Below are positions 648 to 9,989 of a stretch of 32,153 nt of DNA, piece after piece. Made by a program: the position numbers and the translations under genes. The DNA lies in the NCBI GenBank assembly GCA_020720455.1, contig DYOQ01000006.1, positions 31,439-63,591 on the forward strand. Reading direction: 5' to 3'. Under the pieces are notes generated by a model that had not been told where the DNA came from, ran no database searches, and saw only the letters and a program-made list of their open reading frames with translations. This DNA comes from Bdellovibrio sp. Its GTDB lineage: Bacteria > Bdellovibrionota > Bacteriovoracia > Bacteriovoracales > Bacteriovoracaceae. Within the stretch, counting starts at the first letter, position 1. Each line of letters starts with the position of its first letter.

Positions 648-1562
648 ATGTTAAAATTAACGTTTTTGTTTTTATTAATCGGCTTAACAGTTTTTGGTTG
701 TTCAAAAAAAGACCAACAGTTAGGATCTATCGACAACCCAATAAAAATGTATTTTACTCCATCAGTAGATTCTGAAACAATCACCAATAACTCAGAAAAA
801 TTTTTAAAATATTTAGAAGAGAAAACGGGTTTGTATTTCAAATCTGGCATTCCAACTAGCTATATCGCAGTTGTTGAAGCGTTCGGTTCAAGTAAAGCTG
901 ATGTTGCTGTCATGAACTCGTTTGGATATATTCTTGCAAACCAAAAATATGGAGCTCAAGCAAAGCTTACCGTTGTTAGATATGGAAAAAAATCTTACCA
1001 AGGTCAAATTATAGCTAGGGTTGATTCTGGAATAAACACGATCAAAGATCTTGCTGGAAAAAACTTTGCATTTACTGATGCATCCTCTACTTCCGGCTTT
1101 ATGTTTCCTAAAAAAATTCTCAAAGATAATGGTATTGAACTTGGGAACACCGTCTTTGCAGTAAAACACGATAATGTTGTTACTATGGTTTATCAAAAAC
1201 AAGTAGATGCCGGAGCAACATTTTACTCTGAACCATCCGAAACTGGAGAGATTAGAGATGCAAGAGCAAGAGTCAAAGCGCAGTTTCCAGATGTTGCAGA
1301 AAAAGTAAAAATCATCGCAACGACTGATCCAATTCTTAATGATCCATTTGTATTTAGGAAAGATCTTGATAGTGCCATTACTCAAAAAATCATTGATGCC
1401 ATTCAAAGTTTTATCGCAACAGAAGAGGGCAAAGCTATCTTTACCAATATATATAGCGTTGACGGTGTAGAACTTGCCAGTGATAGCGACTATGATGGAC
1501 TAAGAGAGATGATCAAAACAAATGCAGTTGATCCAGCAGAACTTTTAAATGAAGGTAAATAA
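648..1562 (+). CDS. phnD: PhnD-like substrate-binding lipoprotein of a phosphonate/phosphite ABC importer
   Basis: The 304-aa product opens with a lipoprotein signal (hydrophobic residues 3-17, lipidated Cys18 in the string VFGCSKK), so it should be membrane-anchored on the outer face of the inner membrane. The body matches the PhnD family: IKMYFTPSVDSETI near the start, KADVAVMNSFGYILANQK, then DLAGKNFAFTDASSTSGFMFP and AGATFYSEP. These binding proteins capture phosphonates, phosphite or related oxyanions. The start follows a CGGAGA ribosome-binding site. It heads the phnD-phnC-phnE operon. No C-P lyase or phosphite dehydrogenase gene is nearby, so the true ligand is uncertain. The upstream gap has a TATAAT at 604-609 and two TGTAA words 10 nt apart, but no canonical Pho box. 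Confidence 0.9.
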   Translation: MLKLTFLFLLIGLTVFGCSKKDQQLGSIDNPIKMYFTPSVDSETITNNSEKFLKYLEEKTGLYFKSGIPTSYIAVVEAFGSSKADVAVMNSFGYILANQKYGAQAKLTVVRYGKKSYQGQIIARVDSGINTIKDLAGKNFAFTDASSTSGFMFPKKILKDNGIELGNTVFAVKHDNVVTMVYQKQVDAGATFYSEPSETGEIRDARARVKAQFPDVAEKVKIIATTDPILNDPFVFRKDLDSAITQKIIDAIQSFIATEEGKAIFTNIYSVDGVELASDSDYDGLREMIKTNAVDPAELLNEGK

Positions 1563-1582
1563 ACATAAATGAGAAGGACAAT

Positions 1583-2341
1583 ATGTTAAAGATAGGATCT
1601 TTAGAAAAAAAATATCCCAATGGTTGTCACGCTTTAAAGGGAGTCTCTTTTGATGTAGAGAAGGGAGAATTCCTTGTCATTATTGGCCTAAGCGGTTCTG
1701 GCAAATCAACACTACTACGTTGTATTAACCGAATTCATGATCCAACATCAGGGGTTGTTGAATTTAACGGAAAAAATATAACTAGTATTAAGGGAAAGGA
1801 ACTTCGTGAAGCAAGATCTAAAATCGGAATGATTTTTCAACACTTCAACCTCATTCCAAGAAGGAGTGTTCTGGTTAATGTTTTAACTGGAAAGATGGCA
1901 AAACTTGGACTAATTAAATCCATACTAGGACTCTATTCAGAAGAGGACAAAAAAGAGGCCCTTGAAAAAATTAAAATTGTAGGGCTTGAGGGCAAAGAAA
2001 ACGTTCGCGCTGACAATCTAAGTGGTGGGCAGCAACAACGTGTTTCAATCGCTAGGGCCCTAATGCAAAACCCAGAAGTCCTTTTGGCCGATGAACCTGT
2101 CGCAAGTCTCGATCCTGCGACCTCACACTCGGTTATGCAATATTTAGAAAAAATTAATAAAGAGTATGGTGTTACTGTTATATGTAACCTTCACTTTTTA
2201 TCGCTGGTAAGACAGTATGCTACAAGAGTCATTGCTTTAAAAAATGGTGAAATTGTCTTTCAAGGTGGCCCAAAGGAGATAAACGACACATGGTTTAAAG
2301 AGATTTACGGCGAAGAAGCGGTTGAAGTGACAATTAATTAA
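1583..2341 (+). CDS. phnC: PhnC-like ATPase of phosphonate/phosphite ABC importer
   Basis: This 252-aa ABC ATPase powers uptake by the PhnE permease. Visible motifs: Walker A GLSGSGKST (residues 35-43), Q-loop Gln86 in FQHFNLI, signature LSGGQQQR (146-153), Walker B LLADEP (167-172, catalytic Glu171), D-loop SLDPATS, and an H-loop histidine in NLHFLSL. The LIPRRSVLVNVL stretch and the overall length fit the PhnC subfamily. The ribosome-binding site is AGAAGGA. The gene lies 20 nt after phnD and its stop codon sits inside an AATT tandem repeat that continues to the phnE ribosome-binding site. Confidence 0.93.
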   Translation: MLKIGSLEKKYPNGCHALKGVSFDVEKGEFLVIIGLSGSGKSTLLRCINRIHDPTSGVVEFNGKNITSIKGKELREARSKIGMIFQHFNLIPRRSVLVNVLTGKMAKLGLIKSILGLYSEEDKKEALEKIKIVGLEGKENVRADNLSGGQQQRVSIARALMQNPEVLLADEPVASLDPATSHSVMQYLEKINKEYGVTVICNLHFLSLVRQYATRVIALKNGEIVFQGGPKEINDTWFKEIYGEEAVEVTIN

Positions 2342-2352
2342 TTAATTAATTA
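2332..2352. repeat. AATT tetranucleotide repeat (about 5 copies) at the phnC-phnE junction
   Basis: Positions 2332-2352 are an uninterrupted AATT tract of 21 nt. It contains the phnC stop codon (2339-2341) and ends directly at the AGGA ribosome-binding site of phnE. Copy-number change would leave the phnC reading frame ending in the same stop, and would alter only the distance between stop and next start. Confidence 0.9.
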
Positions 2353-2361
2353 GGAAAAAAA

Positions 2362-3387
2362 ATGAACAAGACAAAAAAGATAGATTTAGTTAAAGCGTAT
2401 CTTTCTGATGCTTTTTTTTGGAGCTACTCACTAATAGTTTGTCATAAAGTTATCTATGACAAACTGATTCTTGGAACGAGGTACCCCGTCTTTTCATGGA
2501 CAACAACTATCATCACTACTTTTATTGGTATTTTGATTGCAACGATTTTGTTTAATATCAAAAATTTTTCTGTTGGAAAAAAAATTAAGAATATTAGCGA
2601 AATAGAAAACAACAACTTCCCATTTTATAAATTTTTCTCATATTTTTTATTCATCATTACATTTGTAGCTGGTTTAAAAATCAGCCAAGTATCAATGGAC
2701 GACCTCTTCTCCAGTAGTGGAGCAAGCGGAGCTGGAAAACTTTTCGGAGCAATGCTCAATCCAAATTTTTCAATTTTTGAACCTGCTCTATTTGCTACTA
2801 TTGAGACTATTTTCATGGCGTTCATTGCAACAGTTTTTGCAATACCAATAGCGTTCTTATTATCGTTTTTCGCTGCAAGAAATTTAATGTCACATAACAT
2901 CTTTGCCAAATCTGCTTATGTCACAACACGATTTGTTCTAAATATAACAAGGTCGATAGAACCTCTAGTCTGGGCAACAATCCTATCTGTCTGGGTTGGT
3001 ATTGGCCCATTTGCCGGTATGCTTGCTCTTTGCCTTCACTCCGTTGCAAGCTTGGCCAAACTTTATTCTGAACAAATTGAAGGAATAAATGATGGCCCAA
3101 TAGAAGCGATGACAGCAACGGGGGCACATCAAATTCAAATCATCTGGTTTGGAGTTGTTCCTCAAATCGTGCTCCCATTTCTCTCTTTTACAATTTACCG
3201 CTGGGATATCAATGTCAGAATGGCAACTGTTATAGGATTAGTTGGTGGCGGTGGTATCGGTACACTTCTGATGCAGTACCAAGGCCTTGCAAAATGGAAT
3301 GAGGTTGGATTAATCGTATTAATTATTGCGATAGTTGTTATGATAATGGATTTTGCCTCAGCAAAAATTAGAGAAGCTATCAAGTAG
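2362..3387 (+). CDS. phnE: PhnE-like permease of phosphonate/phosphite ABC importer
   Basis: This 341-aa inner-membrane permease is the channel partner of the PhnC-like ATPase. Membrane segments are visible near residues 45-65, 92-110, 140-170, 195-232, 262-280 and 315-335. The cytoplasmic coupling loop reads GPIEAMTATGAHQIQIIWFG (residues 245-264), with the EAx3G spacing expected for contact with the ATPase. It ends with the PhnE-type VIGLVGGGGIGTLLMQY stretch. It is longer than typical PhnE proteins because of an N-terminal extension of roughly 90 residues holding an extra membrane segment. The ribosome-binding site AGGA is 7 nt before ATG. Its stop is only 4 nt from the convergent end of the 3392-4627 gene, leaving no room for a separate terminator. 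Confidence 0.9.
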   Translation: MNKTKKIDLVKAYLSDAFFWSYSLIVCHKVIYDKLILGTRYPVFSWTTTIITTFIGILIATILFNIKNFSVGKKIKNISEIENNNFPFYKFFSYFLFIITFVAGLKISQVSMDDLFSSSGASGAGKLFGAMLNPNFSIFEPALFATIETIFMAFIATVFAIPIAFLLSFFAARNLMSHNIFAKSAYVTTRFVLNITRSIEPLVWATILSVWVGIGPFAGMLALCLHSVASLAKLYSEQIEGINDGPIEAMTATGAHQIQIIWFGVVPQIVLPFLSFTIYRWDINVRMATVIGLVGGGGIGTLLMQYQGLAKWNEVGLIVLIIAIVVMIMDFASAKIREAIK

Positions 3388-3391
3388 TAAT

Positions 3392-4627
3392 TTATATTCT
3401 ACGATCGATTACAAGACGTTGCTTTCCAGTTCTCTCATTTATAATTAGTTCACTAGAAATAATAGATTTAATTATTACTGGAGCGATGACCTTTGAATCA
3501 AGCGCATCCTTAAGCATTTTTCGCTCTTGAAACAGGATATCCTTTAAATTTTCTAAATCATAAGCTGTACTTTTTTCAACAAAGAGTAAGCTTATGCTTA
3601 GTTGATCAACGCCATTTAAATGATCAATGATGAGCTGAAATGACAAAACTTTTTGATCTAATCCTGCAATTTTTAGAACCGATGCAATATCATCTCTTGT
3701 AATTGTTACTGGCCCTATGCGAGCACCACTATCGCTTCTTCCTGAAATTTTAAAAATATCACCATTACCTGTATAACATCCAACATCGCCAACAGGGTAT
3801 CTAATAATCGGCATGAGCTTTCTAGTAAGATTGGTGTAAACTAACATTCCAGTAACACCAGGAGCAGTAATAACTTCACCTGAGTCTTGATCTACTATTT
3901 CTAATATTGAAGAATCAAGAAACGGGCGATGTTCAAAATTTTTGCAAAGATTTGCATCAAAATATCCAAGATGGCCACCATCGACGCTTGCATATCCAAT
4001 AGAAAAAAGTTTTACACCAGGGAATGCTGACATTATTACTTTTGCTTGATCATCATAGAGTGCTTCTCCACCAAAGAATATTTTTTCAACCGCTAATTTT
4101 ATTCCGCGCTCCTTAACATAGGCGGCGAAATTTAAAAAAGTTGTTGGAACACCTGCGAGCACGTTTATTGATTGATCCTTAATAACATGAGAACATTCGG
4201 AAAACTTCATAGCACCAGTCATTGGAAAATGTGTTAATGAGAGCGAAGATTGCTCTAAAGATTTCATGATAAACATAAAAGAAGCATACAGATTTCCAGC
4301 ATAAAACAAGTTTCCAATGCGATCCCCATCTTGAAACCCATTTTTAGAAAAACCCTCTCCAAAAATTTTTGTAAACTTATTCCACTCATCTATTGTGAAG
4401 TATGAATATTTAGGATTACCGCTTGTACCACCACTTTTAAAAACGACTCCATTTTTCAGTTCACCTGTCAGAATATGCTTTATTGCTGGCATACTCCAAA
4501 ACTCATCAAGCTCAACAATCGGTAGCTGTGATATATCTGAAAACGTATTAACATTCTTATAGAGTTCTGAGTAATACTTAGAATTTTTCTTTGCATAAAT
4601 CGCAATCTCTTCTAAAGAATAAATCAT
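3392..4627 (-). CDS. PaaK/LuxE-like adenylate-forming ligase (last gene of Lux-like operon)
   Basis: This 411-aa protein belongs to the adenylate-forming superfamily, close to phenylacetate-CoA ligase/LuxE types. Such enzymes activate a carboxylic acid with ATP and pass the acyl group to a thiol. Evidence: phosphate-binding loop SGGTSGNPK (residues 65-73), a GVPTTF segment, FFGGEALYDDQ, the core motif RYPVGDVG, then SGRSD, and a C-terminal TGKQRLVIDRR with Lys402 placed like the catalytic A10 lysine. It has no LuxE-type C-terminal cysteine. The start ATG overlaps the previous gene's stop by 4 nt (ATGA), implying translational coupling. It resembles the C-terminal half of its upstream neighbour (shared NLFYAGNLY / NLFFGGNLY and GHLGY / GPLGY), suggesting a duplication. 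Substrate unknown. Confidence 0.8.
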   Translation of the reverse strand: MIYSLEEIAIYAKKNSKYYSELYKNVNTFSDISQLPIVELDEFWSMPAIKHILTGELKNGVVFKSGGTSGNPKYSYFTIDEWNKFTKIFGEGFSKNGFQDGDRIGNLFYAGNLYASFMFIMKSLEQSSLSLTHFPMTGAMKFSECSHVIKDQSINVLAGVPTTFLNFAAYVKERGIKLAVEKIFFGGEALYDDQAKVIMSAFPGVKLFSIGYASVDGGHLGYFDANLCKNFEHRPFLDSSILEIVDQDSGEVITAPGVTGMLVYTNLTRKLMPIIRYPVGDVGCYTGNGDIFKISGRSDSGARIGPVTITRDDIASVLKIAGLDQKVLSFQLIIDHLNGVDQLSISLLFVEKSTAYDLENLKDILFQERKMLKDALDSKVIAPVIIKSIISSELIINERTGKQRLVIDRRI

Positions 4628-7119
4628 TTTATTCTCCGATCAATAACATGAACAGTTTTTGCGCTTGAACTTGTTCGAGTAAAATCATTTTCACTAACAT
4701 AATCAATAAAGATCTCGATCGAACGCTCAACAAGATATAGCTCATTTAAAATCGGATATTTTTTTATAATATCAGTTACTAGATCAATCTCAACGCTAGG
4801 TCGCTTTTCCTTATTAAGAAGTACCGTAATCTTATCAATCCCTCTGGGTCTACTTATTAACAACTGAACCTCTCCAGCATAGTTTGCATCTACGAGAAGC
4901 GCCACAATCGTATTATAATTAACATACGCACTACTAACTCTAAATATATCACCATGCCGTCCTAAAAGTTCAAATTTTGGAGCGGTCTTACCACATTTAC
5001 AAGGTGAGTTTACCCAGCGGCCAAGATCTCCAATGTCATAACGTTCAATTTTAGAACCCATTCTTCGAAAGCTAGTAAATACCAACCTACCTATCTCACC
5101 ACAAACAGTAGGTATATCTGCGTCCATTTTTAAAACTTCCAAACGATGCAACTTATGATGCAAGTGGTGTTCACCACCTATACAATGAAGGCATTGATAT
5201 CCGAGTGGCCCAGCATCAACACTACCATAAGACGCAGAGACTATGTGCTTGATTCCAAACTTTGTCTCAATCCACTGACGTTGTCCTACTGTGAAATGTT
5301 CTCCGCCATAAAATATCTTATCAATCTTTCCGTAGGCAACGAACCGATCAATATTCTTGTCTAACAACATATTAATATATGTCGGTGTCCCTATTAAAAC
5401 ATTAACATCATGTTCAACAATGAACTCACCAACAGATTCAGCATCAAATACTGCGCCCATTGGAAATTGACAAACACCGAGATTTTCTAAAATTGTAAAA
5501 AAACTAATTAATCCACCATAAAGATTTCCACCAAAAAATAAGTTTATCACTCTATCACTCTTTGGATCAAGCCCTGCTGCGATTAATCCTTCTGCAGCAA
5601 AAAGCATCTGAGTCTTATAATCACTATATGTAAATGATGAAAGAGTGCGCTTTCCTGAACTTCCACCACTATGAAAAAACAGTTTAGCTTTTAAGTTTTT
5701 ATACTGCTCTGAAAACATTTCTTTATTCATAACAGGAAGTTCGTCAGAATTTACACTAGGTAAAACATAATCATAATCACTATATCGTCCACCATTTAAT
5801 CTCGACTCAGTCCTAACTCTCCTGCAAAAACGTCTAAGCGCATACTCTCCATCATGTGGTTCACCAAAATATGACTCAAGCATTTTTCCCGGTAGAGTTA
5901 CTCTCGTAACACCTGCAAGAATCAACTTTTGATGAAGATTAACACTCTCAAAATCATCTGCAATAACCGCTGCTGTTTGTAAGTATGACCTGTACGGTAG
6001 CAACGCTTTAAGAATTGTTTCAGGAAGTATGGGCCGAATATGGACAGTCCTATTAAGTGGAGACGCTGCAAGTAACGATCTGTTTTCAACAAACAATCGA
6101 CATCTTCTATTATCTGATTCTATAACCGCACACTCTCCATTCATAATAGATTTAAGTTCAAGCAACTCTTTTTCATTTGTTATCTCACTCTGCTCTGAAA
6201 TACCCGGGGCCGGTCGACTAGTGCCAGAAGAACAAACACCCAAAATTTCCGAAAACATTTTTGCAAAACTAATTAACTCATCCCATCTAGATGTCTCAAA
6301 AAAAATCGTTTGAGGTGAAGAGCAAGATTGTTGTTCATTTTTTATGCAATCTTTAGCAAGCTCTATTAGTGCAGATGTATCTCCCACCTTTTTTTTAGAA
6401 ACATACCCAAACGATATTTTATGTCCCCAAGGGATAAATCGTGTTTGAGGATTAAGTAAGTTTCTAATAGTTTTAACGGACTCATCACCACCCCATACAG
6501 AGACACCATCACTTACTCCAATTAACTTTGCAAGTACCACTGAATCACTATCATCTCTTGACGATAATGGAAGAACTGCAACCATTTTTCCTAAAGTTCC
6601 AGAATGATCAACAAGCGAGAGCTGTTCAAGTAACTTAACTGCAAAAAGGCCACTACCACTGACCTTTAAAATATTTACGTTTTTTGCTAACAACCCTTCT
6701 ATTACTGATAAAACTGCAACTGCTGCTGCATTGGTCGGCGCAATATGAGTAATGACTCCAAGCGGAGCATATCCTTCAAAATAGTTTTGAGTATAATTAG
6801 GTTTTACAAGATCAAAAGAATCAATTCCATCAAGCTCTCTGTTTAATTTTTCTAACAAATTATTTCTTTGGCAAAACGAAATAATATCATCAAGCAAACT
6901 ATTCGCATCATTTAAACACGATCCTTCCGTGATAAGTAGCTCTAGATAACGCTCCTTTTCTTTAGATATTGATACCGCAAGTTTTTCACAACTATCAAGA
7001 ACTATCTCCAAACGTAAATCACAATTTATTCCTTCTGATACACGATCATTAATAGAGTTAAGTTCATCTTCTAACGACTCTCTGTCTATTTTTTTACCAA
7101 ACCAAAAAAATTGAGACAT
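4624..7119 (-). CDS. LuxC-like acyl reductase fused to a PaaK/LuxE-like adenylating domain
   Basis: This 831-aa protein joins two activities usually encoded separately. Residues 1 to about 430 match LuxC (acyl-CoA/acyl-protein reductase, aldehyde-dehydrogenase-like fold): APTNAAAVAVLSVIEGLLAK (127-146), SVWGGDESVKTIR, WGHKISFGYV, and NEQQSCSSPQ, where Cys266 is the expected acyl-accepting nucleophile. LuxC reduces such a thioester to an aldehyde using NADPH. Residues from about 465 to 831 are an adenylate-forming domain: HSGGSSGKR (483-491), NVLIGTPTYIN, FYGGEHFT, SASYGSVDAGPLGY, ERYDIGDLGRW, CKCGKTAPKFELLGRHGD, and a terminal AKTVHVIDRR like the A10 lysine motif. The start codon shares its A with the upstream stop (TAATG). 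The frame runs through both domains without a break, so the fusion is real unless the sequence is misassembled. Confidence 0.85.
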   Translation of the reverse strand: MSQFFWFGKKIDRESLEDELNSINDRVSEGINCDLRLEIVLDSCEKLAVSISKEKERYLELLITEGSCLNDANSLLDDIISFCQRNNLLEKLNRELDGIDSFDLVKPNYTQNYFEGYAPLGVITHIAPTNAAAVAVLSVIEGLLAKNVNILKVSGSGLFAVKLLEQLSLVDHSGTLGKMVAVLPLSSRDDSDSVVLAKLIGVSDGVSVWGGDESVKTIRNLLNPQTRFIPWGHKISFGYVSKKKVGDTSALIELAKDCIKNEQQSCSSPQTIFFETSRWDELISFAKMFSEILGVCSSGTSRPAPGISEQSEITNEKELLELKSIMNGECAVIESDNRRCRLFVENRSLLAASPLNRTVHIRPILPETILKALLPYRSYLQTAAVIADDFESVNLHQKLILAGVTRVTLPGKMLESYFGEPHDGEYALRRFCRRVRTESRLNGGRYSDYDYVLPSVNSDELPVMNKEMFSEQYKNLKAKLFFHSGGSSGKRTLSSFTYSDYKTQMLFAAEGLIAAGLDPKSDRVINLFFGGNLYGGLISFFTILENLGVCQFPMGAVFDAESVGEFIVEHDVNVLIGTPTYINMLLDKNIDRFVAYGKIDKIFYGGEHFTVGQRQWIETKFGIKHIVSASYGSVDAGPLGYQCLHCIGGEHHLHHKLHRLEVLKMDADIPTVCGEIGRLVFTSFRRMGSKIERYDIGDLGRWVNSPCKCGKTAPKFELLGRHGDIFRVSSAYVNYNTIVALLVDANYAGEVQLLISRPRGIDKITVLLNKEKRPSVEIDLVTDIIKKYPILNELYLVERSIEIFIDYVSENDFTRTSSSAKTVHVIDRRIK

Positions 7120-8276
7120 TAATTCCTACCTTTTAATAAATCAAGCGCATTTACAGCACAACTTTTACTAGCAGTTGTTCCGGCCCTACCTACTATTTCA
7201 AAATAAGGGGTCTCAATTCCACATCCACACGATCTTGCTGGAAACATTTTAGCAAGATCTGTCATTAATACACTGTTGGCCGGTACAGATGTTATGTATG
7301 GTGAGATTAAATTTAAATAACCACTAATCCCATACTCAACAGGTTCAAGCGTAGCAACATCTCTAATTAATACTCTTGACCATTTTGGAATATGAAAATT
7401 ATGGTTCGCACACTCTATATAAGGGATGCAGTGTTCGACAGAGCCAAAACCATCTCGCAGCCTCTCATCTGGAATCCCTAAAATATCATTCGCCATTTTA
7501 TAGAGTTCCTTTTTTTTTATCGCTTTATTTTGATGATTCTTCCATCCTCCCCCTAAAAATACTAGCGAGTTAGGATTAAGCATATTTGAAACTCCACCCA
7601 TTGCTGCAAGATACTCTAGTGTAAAATAAAAAAATGCAGGAAATCCAAATATTCGAACAGGCAACCCTTCTAGTGAGAATCGTTCGAGTGCTTCAACTGT
7701 TCCAAAAAGATCAAACTCATATTTTCCAGGAGAACTCTCTTTTAATGCGTAGTGAACCGAGTTTGGTTTAGCGTACTTGCAAAGAAAGTTGTCAGTATAG
7801 GCCGTTCCTAGCTTCTCATGTTTTTTTACTGGTTCATACGAATACAAAAGATAATTAACATCACTCTCTGTTTCTATCCAGTTATAGTATCTAAAAATTT
7901 CATCGACCATTCCTTGGGCAACACCGATTGTCCACTTGTCAAAAAAAATTTGAGACTTTTGGCCTGTTGTTCCTGACGAAGTAAGGTGTAGTGCAACCTC
8001 ATCTCTAGAAACTGAGAGCAGCTCATACTGTTTAAAAAATGTTGCTAAAATAAAAGGAACATTTTTCAAATCATCTATTTGTTGCAAAGTATTCGATCGA
8101 TAATTTTTAAACTCAAGCAATCTATCATAAAAGCTATTTTGATCTCTATGCCACAAGATATTTTCTTTCATCGCAAGCAGAAACAAATCATCATCTAAAT
8201 CCGTATACGGATCTTTTGCTAAGCAAAGTTTAGCAATATTTTGCATTGATAATGGAAGTAAATTTCCAAGGCTCAT
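7119..8276 (-). CDS. luxE: LuxE-like acyl-protein synthetase
   Basis: This 385-aa protein matches the LuxE acyl-protein synthetase family, which adenylates a fatty or other carboxylic acid and carries the acyl group on a cysteine before handing it to LuxC. The nucleotide-binding loop is LTSSGTTGQKS (residues 98-108). Other family features are FGFPAFFYF, LGGGWKNHQNK, RDGFGSVEHCIPY, and the C-terminal CGCGIETPYFEIVGRAG. Cys373, 12 residues before the end, sits where the acylated cysteine of bacterial LuxE lies; Cys350 and Cys352 are also close. It overlaps the upstream gene by 4 nt and the downstream gene by 1 nt. Length agrees with LuxE. The name reflects family only; there is no luciferase here and the substrate need not be a myristoyl chain. 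Confidence 0.82.
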   Translation of the reverse strand: MSLGNLLPLSMQNIAKLCLAKDPYTDLDDDLFLLAMKENILWHRDQNSFYDRLLEFKNYRSNTLQQIDDLKNVPFILATFFKQYELLSVSRDEVALHLTSSGTTGQKSQIFFDKWTIGVAQGMVDEIFRYYNWIETESDVNYLLYSYEPVKKHEKLGTAYTDNFLCKYAKPNSVHYALKESSPGKYEFDLFGTVEALERFSLEGLPVRIFGFPAFFYFTLEYLAAMGGVSNMLNPNSLVFLGGGWKNHQNKAIKKKELYKMANDILGIPDERLRDGFGSVEHCIPYIECANHNFHIPKWSRVLIRDVATLEPVEYGISGYLNLISPYITSVPANSVLMTDLAKMFPARSCGCGIETPYFEIVGRAGTTASKSCAVNALDLLKGRN

Positions 8277-9451
8277 CTGTCTACCTTAAAAGATTCAAGG
8301 TTAACATGCGCCCACATTTTCACATACTGATCAATATACCCTTTAAACGCATGATCAACACTAATATCACTAAAATCAAGCGGAACCATCGTCCTTGCTA
8401 ATACAACAAAATCTCGATATATACCGTCAACTTTTATCATTGCCGGATAGAGTGCTGACGGTAAAAATCTATTCTGAACTAAAAAACAAAGCTCTTCGAG
8501 ATGGTCAACCTGAACGATCAACTCGATATAATAAACACCTAAATCTTTAATCGTAAAAATCATTCTCTCAAACGCTGCTCCCATTTCATGAATTTTACCA
8601 GTCGATGCAATCAATACGCAATAATGATCCTTTTTACTAAAATTAGCAAAGATCTCAACCTCACTACCATTAGTGATAACCATATTGGGTTGATTAAAAG
8701 GAAAATATGATCGTTGCCTTATAATTTTACCACTATCTAAAAAATCTTTGAAACGTCTTTCAACAAAGGAAGGGGCATAGATGTATTCAAACTCATCTGT
8801 TCTACCACCATCGTCAACAACACTCTCACTTCCTTTAATAAAATACTCTTCGCACAAGCAGTATTTTGAATTATACAAGTTCATTCTTAAATTATTACTA
8901 GCTTCTGCATAAAGTTCTGCTAGCATCGTTGGAAGTTTTTTTGGTGCAGATCTCTCTTTAAATAGAGCGAGTTCTTTATAGGCAACCAACAGCGCTAACG
9001 TCTCATACGTTTTAATCTTTCTCGCATTTGGGAAAATACCAAGAGCTAAAAAACCTGTACTTAGTAACATTCGTTGAGAAGAGAGCGAGATTGTTCTCGC
9101 CGTTGCGTATAAAGAGTTAATAGAATATTTATCAAAAACCTCTTTCATTCCATATTGAATTATCTCTTTAGCGAGTCCATACTCTCTAACCTCTTTTGAA
9201 ACCACTACACCTGAAAGTTTACCTATGGACTCCACTGGATCTAACTCAAATATTGCAGACGCAACGATTTTTCCCTCTGGCATAGCTCTTACTACTGGCC
9301 AGAAGCACTCTTGAGGGGAACTAAGTGCCTTTTTCATTACGTCACGATCTGTTCCAATTTTTAAAGGATAACTATCACCATAAGCAGAGTGATATAAGCC
9401 TAAAAGATCAGGAATATCTATAATCCTCGCCCTATCTATCTGAAAATCCAT
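8273..9451 (-). CDS. Two-domain GNAT-like acyltransferase, first gene of Lux-like operon
   Basis: This 392-aa protein begins with a GNAT N-acetyltransferase fold (residues 1 to about 150): RARIIDIPDLLGLYHSAYGD, GKLSGVVVSKEVREYGLAKE (acetyl-CoA-binding loop region, with a weak Q/RxxGxG/A match), then SLSSQRMLLSTGFLALG. The rest, residues 180-392, includes a region near 290-360 that looks like a second, degenerate GNAT fold (MGAAFERMIFTIKDLGVYYI then FLVQNRFLPSALYPAM). GNAT enzymes move an acyl group from CoA or a carrier to an amine. The gene has an AGGTAG ribosome-binding site and heads the four-gene operon, overlapping luxE by 4 nt. A link between GNAT chemistry and the aldehyde- or acyl-forming enzymes is inferred from the overlaps alone. 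Confidence 0.7.
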   Translation of the reverse strand: MDFQIDRARIIDIPDLLGLYHSAYGDSYPLKIGTDRDVMKKALSSPQECFWPVVRAMPEGKIVASAIFELDPVESIGKLSGVVVSKEVREYGLAKEIIQYGMKEVFDKYSINSLYATARTISLSSQRMLLSTGFLALGIFPNARKIKTYETLALLVAYKELALFKERSAPKKLPTMLAELYAEASNNLRMNLYNSKYCLCEEYFIKGSESVVDDGGRTDEFEYIYAPSFVERRFKDFLDSGKIIRQRSYFPFNQPNMVITNGSEVEIFANFSKKDHYCVLIASTGKIHEMGAAFERMIFTIKDLGVYYIELIVQVDHLEELCFLVQNRFLPSALYPAMIKVDGIYRDFVVLARTMVPLDFSDISVDHAFKGYIDQYVKMWAHVNLESFKVDR

Positions 9452-9524
9452 AAACTACCTACTAAAATTATTCCCTCTACAATCGAATAGTATTATCTAG
9501 TATCATAAGATATTGGGGGGAACA

Positions 9525-9989
9525 ATGAGTATGAAAAATCTACTAGGACTGGGCAGGGCAAAGCAAACTTTTCACTTTTTCTTGATAATTACAATGTCAC
9601 TATTACTATCTTTTTCTCTATATGCAAGAAAACCTGCCATAGAGCCAGTAATGGGACTATCTATCGAAGAGTATAACCACGTTCCAACCAACCCTAAAAA
9701 CTGGCCGGATTTTTCTAATAAAGTTGATCAAGAACAAATACAGATTGATCCAAGTAAAGTTCTCACCGTACAAACCACAGACTCTTTAACGAAAGAGAGT
9801 AGTTTTCCAGTCTATTTAGCTATACTAATTGGCCTACTCCCTTTTGTCATACTTGGAGGAGTTCTATTTCCTATTACACATAAAAAACAGAGTGAAAGTG
9901 GCATTGTTGCTTACAACAATGTGACAGATATAACTGATGCTATTAAACAGAAAAACGATAGTTCAAAAAAATTTCCAAAAGCGTCTTAG
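9525..9989 (+). CDS. Small membrane-anchored exported protein, unknown function
   Basis: I do not recognise this 154-aa protein. A hydrophobic segment near residues 17-34 (HFFLIITMSLLLSFSLYA) looks like a signal peptide. A second at about 94-114 (VYLAILIGLLPFVILGGVLF) looks like a membrane anchor, followed by a basic turn (THKKQ) and a charged tail. The middle, residues 35-90, would then be outside the cytoplasm and is rich in Pro, Asn, Asp and Gln. I chose ATG 9525 because a GGGGGG ribosome-binding site lies 4 nt before it; ATG 9531 is also possible, and an upstream TTG at 9513 would overlap that site. It diverges from the Lux-like operon across only 73 bp and could share regulation with it. 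Confidence 0.7.
   Translation: MSMKNLLGLGRAKQTFHFFLIITMSLLLSFSLYARKPAIEPVMGLSIEEYNHVPTNPKNWPDFSNKVDQEQIQIDPSKVLTVQTTDSLTKESSFPVYLAILIGLLPFVILGGVLFPITHKKQSESGIVAYNNVTDITDAIKQKNDSSKKFPKAS

Follow-up and report, generated by a model that had tools for sequence, protein, structure and literature searches.

Laboratories use leupeptin as a standard protease inhibitor, and the peptide aldehydes of Streptomyces are usually credited to NRPSs. In Xenorhabdus, leupeptin is reported to arise by a non-NRPS pathway whose AMP-dependent ligases are separate and which includes a reductase (PMC11212599). In Klebsiella michiganensis, leupABCD is reported to adjoin a transporter (CP011636.1, 315,353–321,183; leupA primer ATG at 315,403) (PMC8283571). 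Another system close to the present locus is the fatty-acid reductase of luxCDABE, represented by the solved LuxC–LuxE complex (PDB 7xc6); the LuxE cysteine of the known system was described as catalytic Cys362 (PMC12655506). In the present study, we analyzed a window of DNA (the whole stretch of 32,153 nucleotides from a Bdellovibrio sp. contig) containing a four-gene operon that probably encodes a leupeptin-type, non-NRPS pathway to an N-acyl peptide aldehyde.

The operon spans 6,060 bp (Table 1). The original prediction of four overlapping minus-strand genes for a GNAT-like protein, a LuxE-like protein, a LuxC-ligase fusion, and a ligase was confirmed for the open reading frames, the successive overlaps (4, 1, and 4 nt), and the domains. 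According to the ORF and domain analysis, the genes run from GNAT through the LuxE-like gene and the LuxC::ligase fusion to the second PaaK-like ligase. The host, a relative of predatory Bacteriovoracia, has a genome of 2.7 Mb in 92 contigs, with an assembly completeness of 97%. Profile searches of this genome revealed a single LuxE and a single LuxC, and the luciferase family PF00296 gave no match at E<=0.001. The luxA and luxB genes, which were predicted to be missing from the operon, were thus found nowhere else in the host genome, and luxD was absent among the cassette genes when the operon was inspected. A bioluminescence remnant was rejected because the genome has no PF00296 luciferase.

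Table 1. Features of the operon (window coordinates)
Feature	Position	Strand	Basis
Gene 1, two-domain GNAT-like N-acyltransferase, 392 aa	8273..9451	-	PF00583; AblB beta-lysine N-acetyltransferase-like
N-terminal GNAT domain, residues 1-164	8960..9451	-	Z about 15 to RimI, NatA, NAGS C-domain
C-terminal domain, residues 222-388, second GNAT-like strand/helix order	8288..8788	-	Model secondary structure
Gene 2, LuxE-like acyl-protein synthetase, 385 aa	7119..8276	-	PF04443, 115 bits; 7xc6 LuxE, E 9e-34
LuxE Cys373 codon, acyl-carrying cysteine	7158..7160	-	91/91 copies; aligned with C-terminal Cys of 7xc6 LuxE
Gene 3, fusion of LuxC reductase and PaaK-like ligase 1, 831 aa	4624..7119	-	PF05893, 258 bits; AMP-binding and PaaK models; several phyla have full-length homologues
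LuxC acyl-thioester reductase domain, residues 1-440	5800..7119	-	7xc6 LuxC, E 2e-35
LuxC Cys266 codon, catalytic cysteine	6322..6324	-	93/93 copies; aligned with 7xc6 LuxC
AMP-forming PaaK-family ligase 1 domain, residues 446-831	4627..5784	-	Family models and profile match
Ligase 1 Lys821 codon, A10-type lysine	4657..4659	-	Catalytic Lys in 92/92 copies
Gene 4, separate PaaK-like ligase 2, 411 aa	3392..4627	-	NCBIfam PaaK-related models; PDB PaaK and PaaK-like 6siw
Ligase 2 Lys402 codon, A10-type lysine	3422..3424	-	89/89 copies

No carrier or condensation domain was detected in the four cassette proteins by a Pfam scan, and the cassette contains no ACP, fatty-acid, thioesterase, or glycan genes. 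ACP, FabG, and glycan genes were also absent at 9.5–23.7 kb of the window and on the side of the neighboring PhnDCE genes. Promoter and terminator scans of the locus returned no more sites than shuffled sequences. A PhnD/PhnC/PhnE-like phosphonate/phosphite ABC transporter is encoded convergently on the plus strand (648–3387), 4 bases from the operon end. A phosphonate link was rejected because this transporter is convergent, lies outside the operon, and is not kept beside the cassette in the compared loci. On the other side, a short divergent gene without a Pfam match (9513–9989, plus strand) has homologues that hold the same position beside the cassette in related genomes.

The gene set is widely distributed. 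The fusion was matched in 46 of the 291 sampled genomes of the phylum at E<1e-100, which is far beyond chance, and tblastn located the full-length fusion on Streptomyces plasmids and two Salmonella plasmids. We retrieved 80 loci from named genomes of Bdellovibrionota, Actinomycetota, and Pseudomonadota, together with records labelled as one Elusimicrobia and one Bacteroidota MAG. Using profiles built in this analysis, all five domains were detected in nearly every fetched locus, and GNAT was nearly always present. The gene order varies: GNAT-LuxE-LuxC::LIG1-LIG2 in Bacteriovoracia, LIG2-(MFS)-GNAT-LuxE-LuxC::LIG1 in Streptomyces, and LuxE-LuxC::LIG1-LIG2-GNAT in Salmonella and other Proteobacteria. 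One genome (G127, L162) encodes LuxC and LIG1 separately. Since the content is constant despite the shuffled order across phyla, the five domains appear to act together as a functional unit. Furthermore, LIG1 and LIG2 each formed one group across phyla with 100% support in a quick tree; therefore, the pair is ancient and has moved jointly. Many cassettes of Actinomycetota, Pseudomonadota, and further Bdellovibrionota include or adjoin an MFS exporter gene of the DHA3 type, of the Mef (macrolide-efflux)/EntS kind; the window operon contains none.

The cassette is present on Salmonella plasmids (entries L027 and L031; further records NC_019126.1 and CP053407.1). In CP053580, the GNAT sequence is split into two overlapping pieces, and on two other plasmids the match covers only part of LuxE. 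The E. coli genomes gave no match to the Salmonella plasmid cassette.

Counted over about 90 copies, Cys266, Cys373, and both ligase lysines were invariant. The expectation that Cys266 and the ligase loops would be conserved in homologues was borne out, with Cys266 present in every copy and the loops kept. In profile alignments, Cys266 and Cys373 fell on the matching cysteines of the 7xc6 complex; therefore, the last step is likely to be a thioester transfer from LuxE to LuxC followed by reduction, as judged from these sequence alignments. A LuxE-like protein with 33% identity to that of the window was found in a record labelled 'Bacteriophage sp.' from human faeces (MT835565.1:11722-12816), which may be a mislabelled contig.

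The ligase profiles matched PaaK enzymes and the PaaK-like ligases PDB 6siw and 6wuq. Some of these PaaK-like ligases join an acyl-adenylate to amines or alcohols and not to CoA, which is a precedent for coupling it to a small nucleophile. The cassette ligases could form CoA thioesters or esters rather than amides.

The AlphaFold model of gene 1 (pLDDT 88.9) is a two-domain protein. In a fold search covering mainly residues 1–164 and barely probing the C-terminal domain, its N-terminal half was nearest to N-alpha-acetyltransferases such as RimI, Ard1, NatA, and N-acetylglutamate synthase. We propose that GNAT acylates the first amino acid or peptide on its amino group; the fold alone is no proof of substrate. 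Two Proteobacteria have a GNAT fusion with an RsbW-like HATPase domain (L062:13766-15274 and L081:13765-15237), and SpoIIE proteins are encoded near several cassettes (L062:5742-7895, L123:16076-18052, L070:4741-7179, and L096:4779-7271). The HATPase fusion and the nearby SpoIIE-type phosphatases hint at partner-switch regulation.

We favor a leupeptin-type pathway because two ligases, an N-acetyltransferase, a LuxE/LuxC reductase, and the MFS exporter of the relatives match the chemistry of leupeptin. In this pathway, GNAT would acylate the alpha-amino group of an amino acid, and the two AMP-forming PaaK-like ligases, one separate and one fused to LuxC, would make two amide bonds to yield an N-acyl tripeptide acid. 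LuxE would then activate the terminal carboxyl with ATP and hold it as a thioester on Cys373; LuxC would take it over on Cys266 and, using NAD(P)H, reduce it to the aldehyde. The resulting peptide aldehyde would inhibit serine and cysteine proteases covalently, and the MFS exporter would remove it from the cell in many relatives. The gene set, its co-occurrence, the conserved active sites, and the lack of luciferase are observed, whereas we infer the formation of peptide bonds by the ligases, the order of the steps, and the product. The product may be leupeptin itself, acetyl-Leu-Leu-argininal, an identity to which we give slightly less than even credence.

Several single cases concern the amino acids handled near the cassette. 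The Azorhizobium cassette is directly preceded, in the same orientation, by genes for arginine decarboxylase and for an arginine/agmatine antiporter (L121:4818-8675), and a clostripain-family gene, belonging to an Arg-specific protease family, directly follows a one-ligase cassette (L158:10087-11367). These two cases hint at a basic residue in the product. In Contendobacter, an amino-acid permease gene, not specifically arginine-like, immediately precedes LuxE, and a trypsin-like gene lies beyond the cassette of S. noursei.

If the number of ligases equals the number of amide bonds, relatives with one ligase are expected to exist. GNAT-LuxE-LuxC::ligase loci without the second ligase were identified in genomes of the same family, such as G240 (a one-contig genome), G211, G091, and G276. 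The fusion query hit one place in the whole genome of G240, whereas genomes with two ligases gave a second match. The fusions of one-ligase loci (L152, L153, L154, L160, L164, and L158) were about 25–32% identical to that of the window. We predict that one-ligase cassettes yield dipeptide aldehydes, provided that the ligases count amide bonds. If confirmed, these relatives would represent a new variant. A further type (L155–L157 and L161) combines two ligases with two GNAT-like genes.

We weighed this pathway against other uses of the gene set. The product may be a different small N-acyl amino aldehyde, or the aldehyde may be a mere intermediate that cyclizes to a pyrazinone- or imine-type signal, such that protease inhibition is not its purpose. 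Pyrazinone signals in Klebsiella arise from leupeptins (PMC11480411), for which the same gene set would serve, and SpoIIE and HATPase-type regulators adjoin some cassettes. However, no cyclase or protease gene was kept with the cassette in the examined flanks, and we regard this explanation as unlikely. It is very improbable that LuxE and LuxC produce a fatty aldehyde or alcohol in a Lux-like manner from acyl groups that the ligases supply from free fatty acids. While LuxC and LuxE resemble the bioluminescence pair and have both catalytic cysteines, they fell far short of the NCBIfam lux thresholds, with 57 against 750 bits and 91 against 550 bits. Moreover, the genome lacks luxAB, the operon has no ACP or thioesterase, the ligases are PaaK-like rather than of the long-chain fatty-acid type, and the near-constant GNAT is a further point against fatty-acid reduction.

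Flagellin glycosylation islands hold LuxE, LuxC, CoA ligases, and ACP (PMC4875605), and the cassette might similarly modify a sugar or surface glycan. We attach hardly any probability to this role: the window neighborhood has no glycan or ACP genes, the cassette is present in non-flagellated Streptomyces, and unfused Enterobacterales LuxC/LuxE scored only about 140–205/15 bits against the cassette profiles, in contrast to about 450–630/560–700 bits for cassette members. The original prediction of a biosynthetic operon for an acyl or aldehyde group stands in outline, as acid activation and reduction without luciferase; its suggestion of a lipid or modified sugar is not supported, given the same observations and the lack of fatty-acid genes in the cassette.

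The leupeptin-type pathway may have a wider meaning. We tentatively envision, with rather more doubt than confidence, NRPS-free peptide-aldehyde pathways as a family whose peptide length depends on how many stand-alone ligases are present (a dipeptide with one and a tripeptide with two). In this view, the family spread by gene transfer across several phyla, is the so far unrecognised genetic source of leupeptin in many actinomycetes, and serves predatory Bdellovibrionota as a protease-inhibitor system. We know of no report of such a pathway in Bdellovibrionota. As a compact unit present in several phyla, the cassette would give access to new peptide aldehydes through easy cloning and would provide actinomycete leupeptin with a gene basis that can be tested, and it would suggest that predatory lineages reliant on proteases also make protease inhibitors.

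Among known systems, the cassette shares with luxCDABE the two-enzyme chemistry of activation and reduction, and the acyl cysteine of LuxE and the catalytic cysteine of LuxC in 7xc6 are kept. However, it has no luciferase or LuxD, its LuxC is fused to a ligase, it has an extra ligase and GNAT, and it scores below the lux-specific cut-offs. The cassette ligases belong to the same PaaK-like family as 6siw and 6wuq, which act on aryl substrates; in contrast to these, two distinct ligases occur in one operon here. The NRPS peptide aldehydes antipain and flavopeptin, as well as livipeptin, are alike in product class, but the cassette has no condensation, carrier, or R domain and instead uses stand-alone PaaK-like ligases with LuxE/LuxC.

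The leup operon of Xenorhabdus, Photorhabdus, and K. michiganensis, reported to make leupeptin without an NRPS (Li et al. 2020, as cited in later papers), is a further system close to the cassette. Its gene number, its length, and the enzyme classes given in publications lead us to infer homology to the cassette. The leupA primer peptide MKIAIHN was absent from every fetched locus and from the sampled Enterobacteriaceae genomes, among which K. michiganensis is not known to be. A protein search within one further genus gave no match to leup, and a search by name found no paper on the known leupeptin producers. The primer-derived EQLKDH gave a weak match, a loose fit to an E-x-L-x-D stretch of the fusion close to where it would be expected. 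The window operon belongs to another phylum and has GNAT first, whereas the enterobacterial cassettes in this study have GNAT last. A transporter adjoins leupABCD, and many cassette relatives have an MFS exporter, which the window operon lacks. Both systems consist of four genes, with separate AMP-forming ligases, an aldehyde-forming reductase, and no NRPS. The leup operon is also nearly equal in length to the enterobacterial cassettes: as computed from the published coordinates, leupABCD extends over 5,781 bp if counted from the ATG of the leupA primer or 5,831 bp if counted from the stated cluster start, and the LuxE-LuxC::LIG1-LIG2-GNAT cassettes of the enterobacterial genomes G838 and G947 and a Salmonella plasmid measure 5,763, 5,778, and 5,759 bp, respectively.
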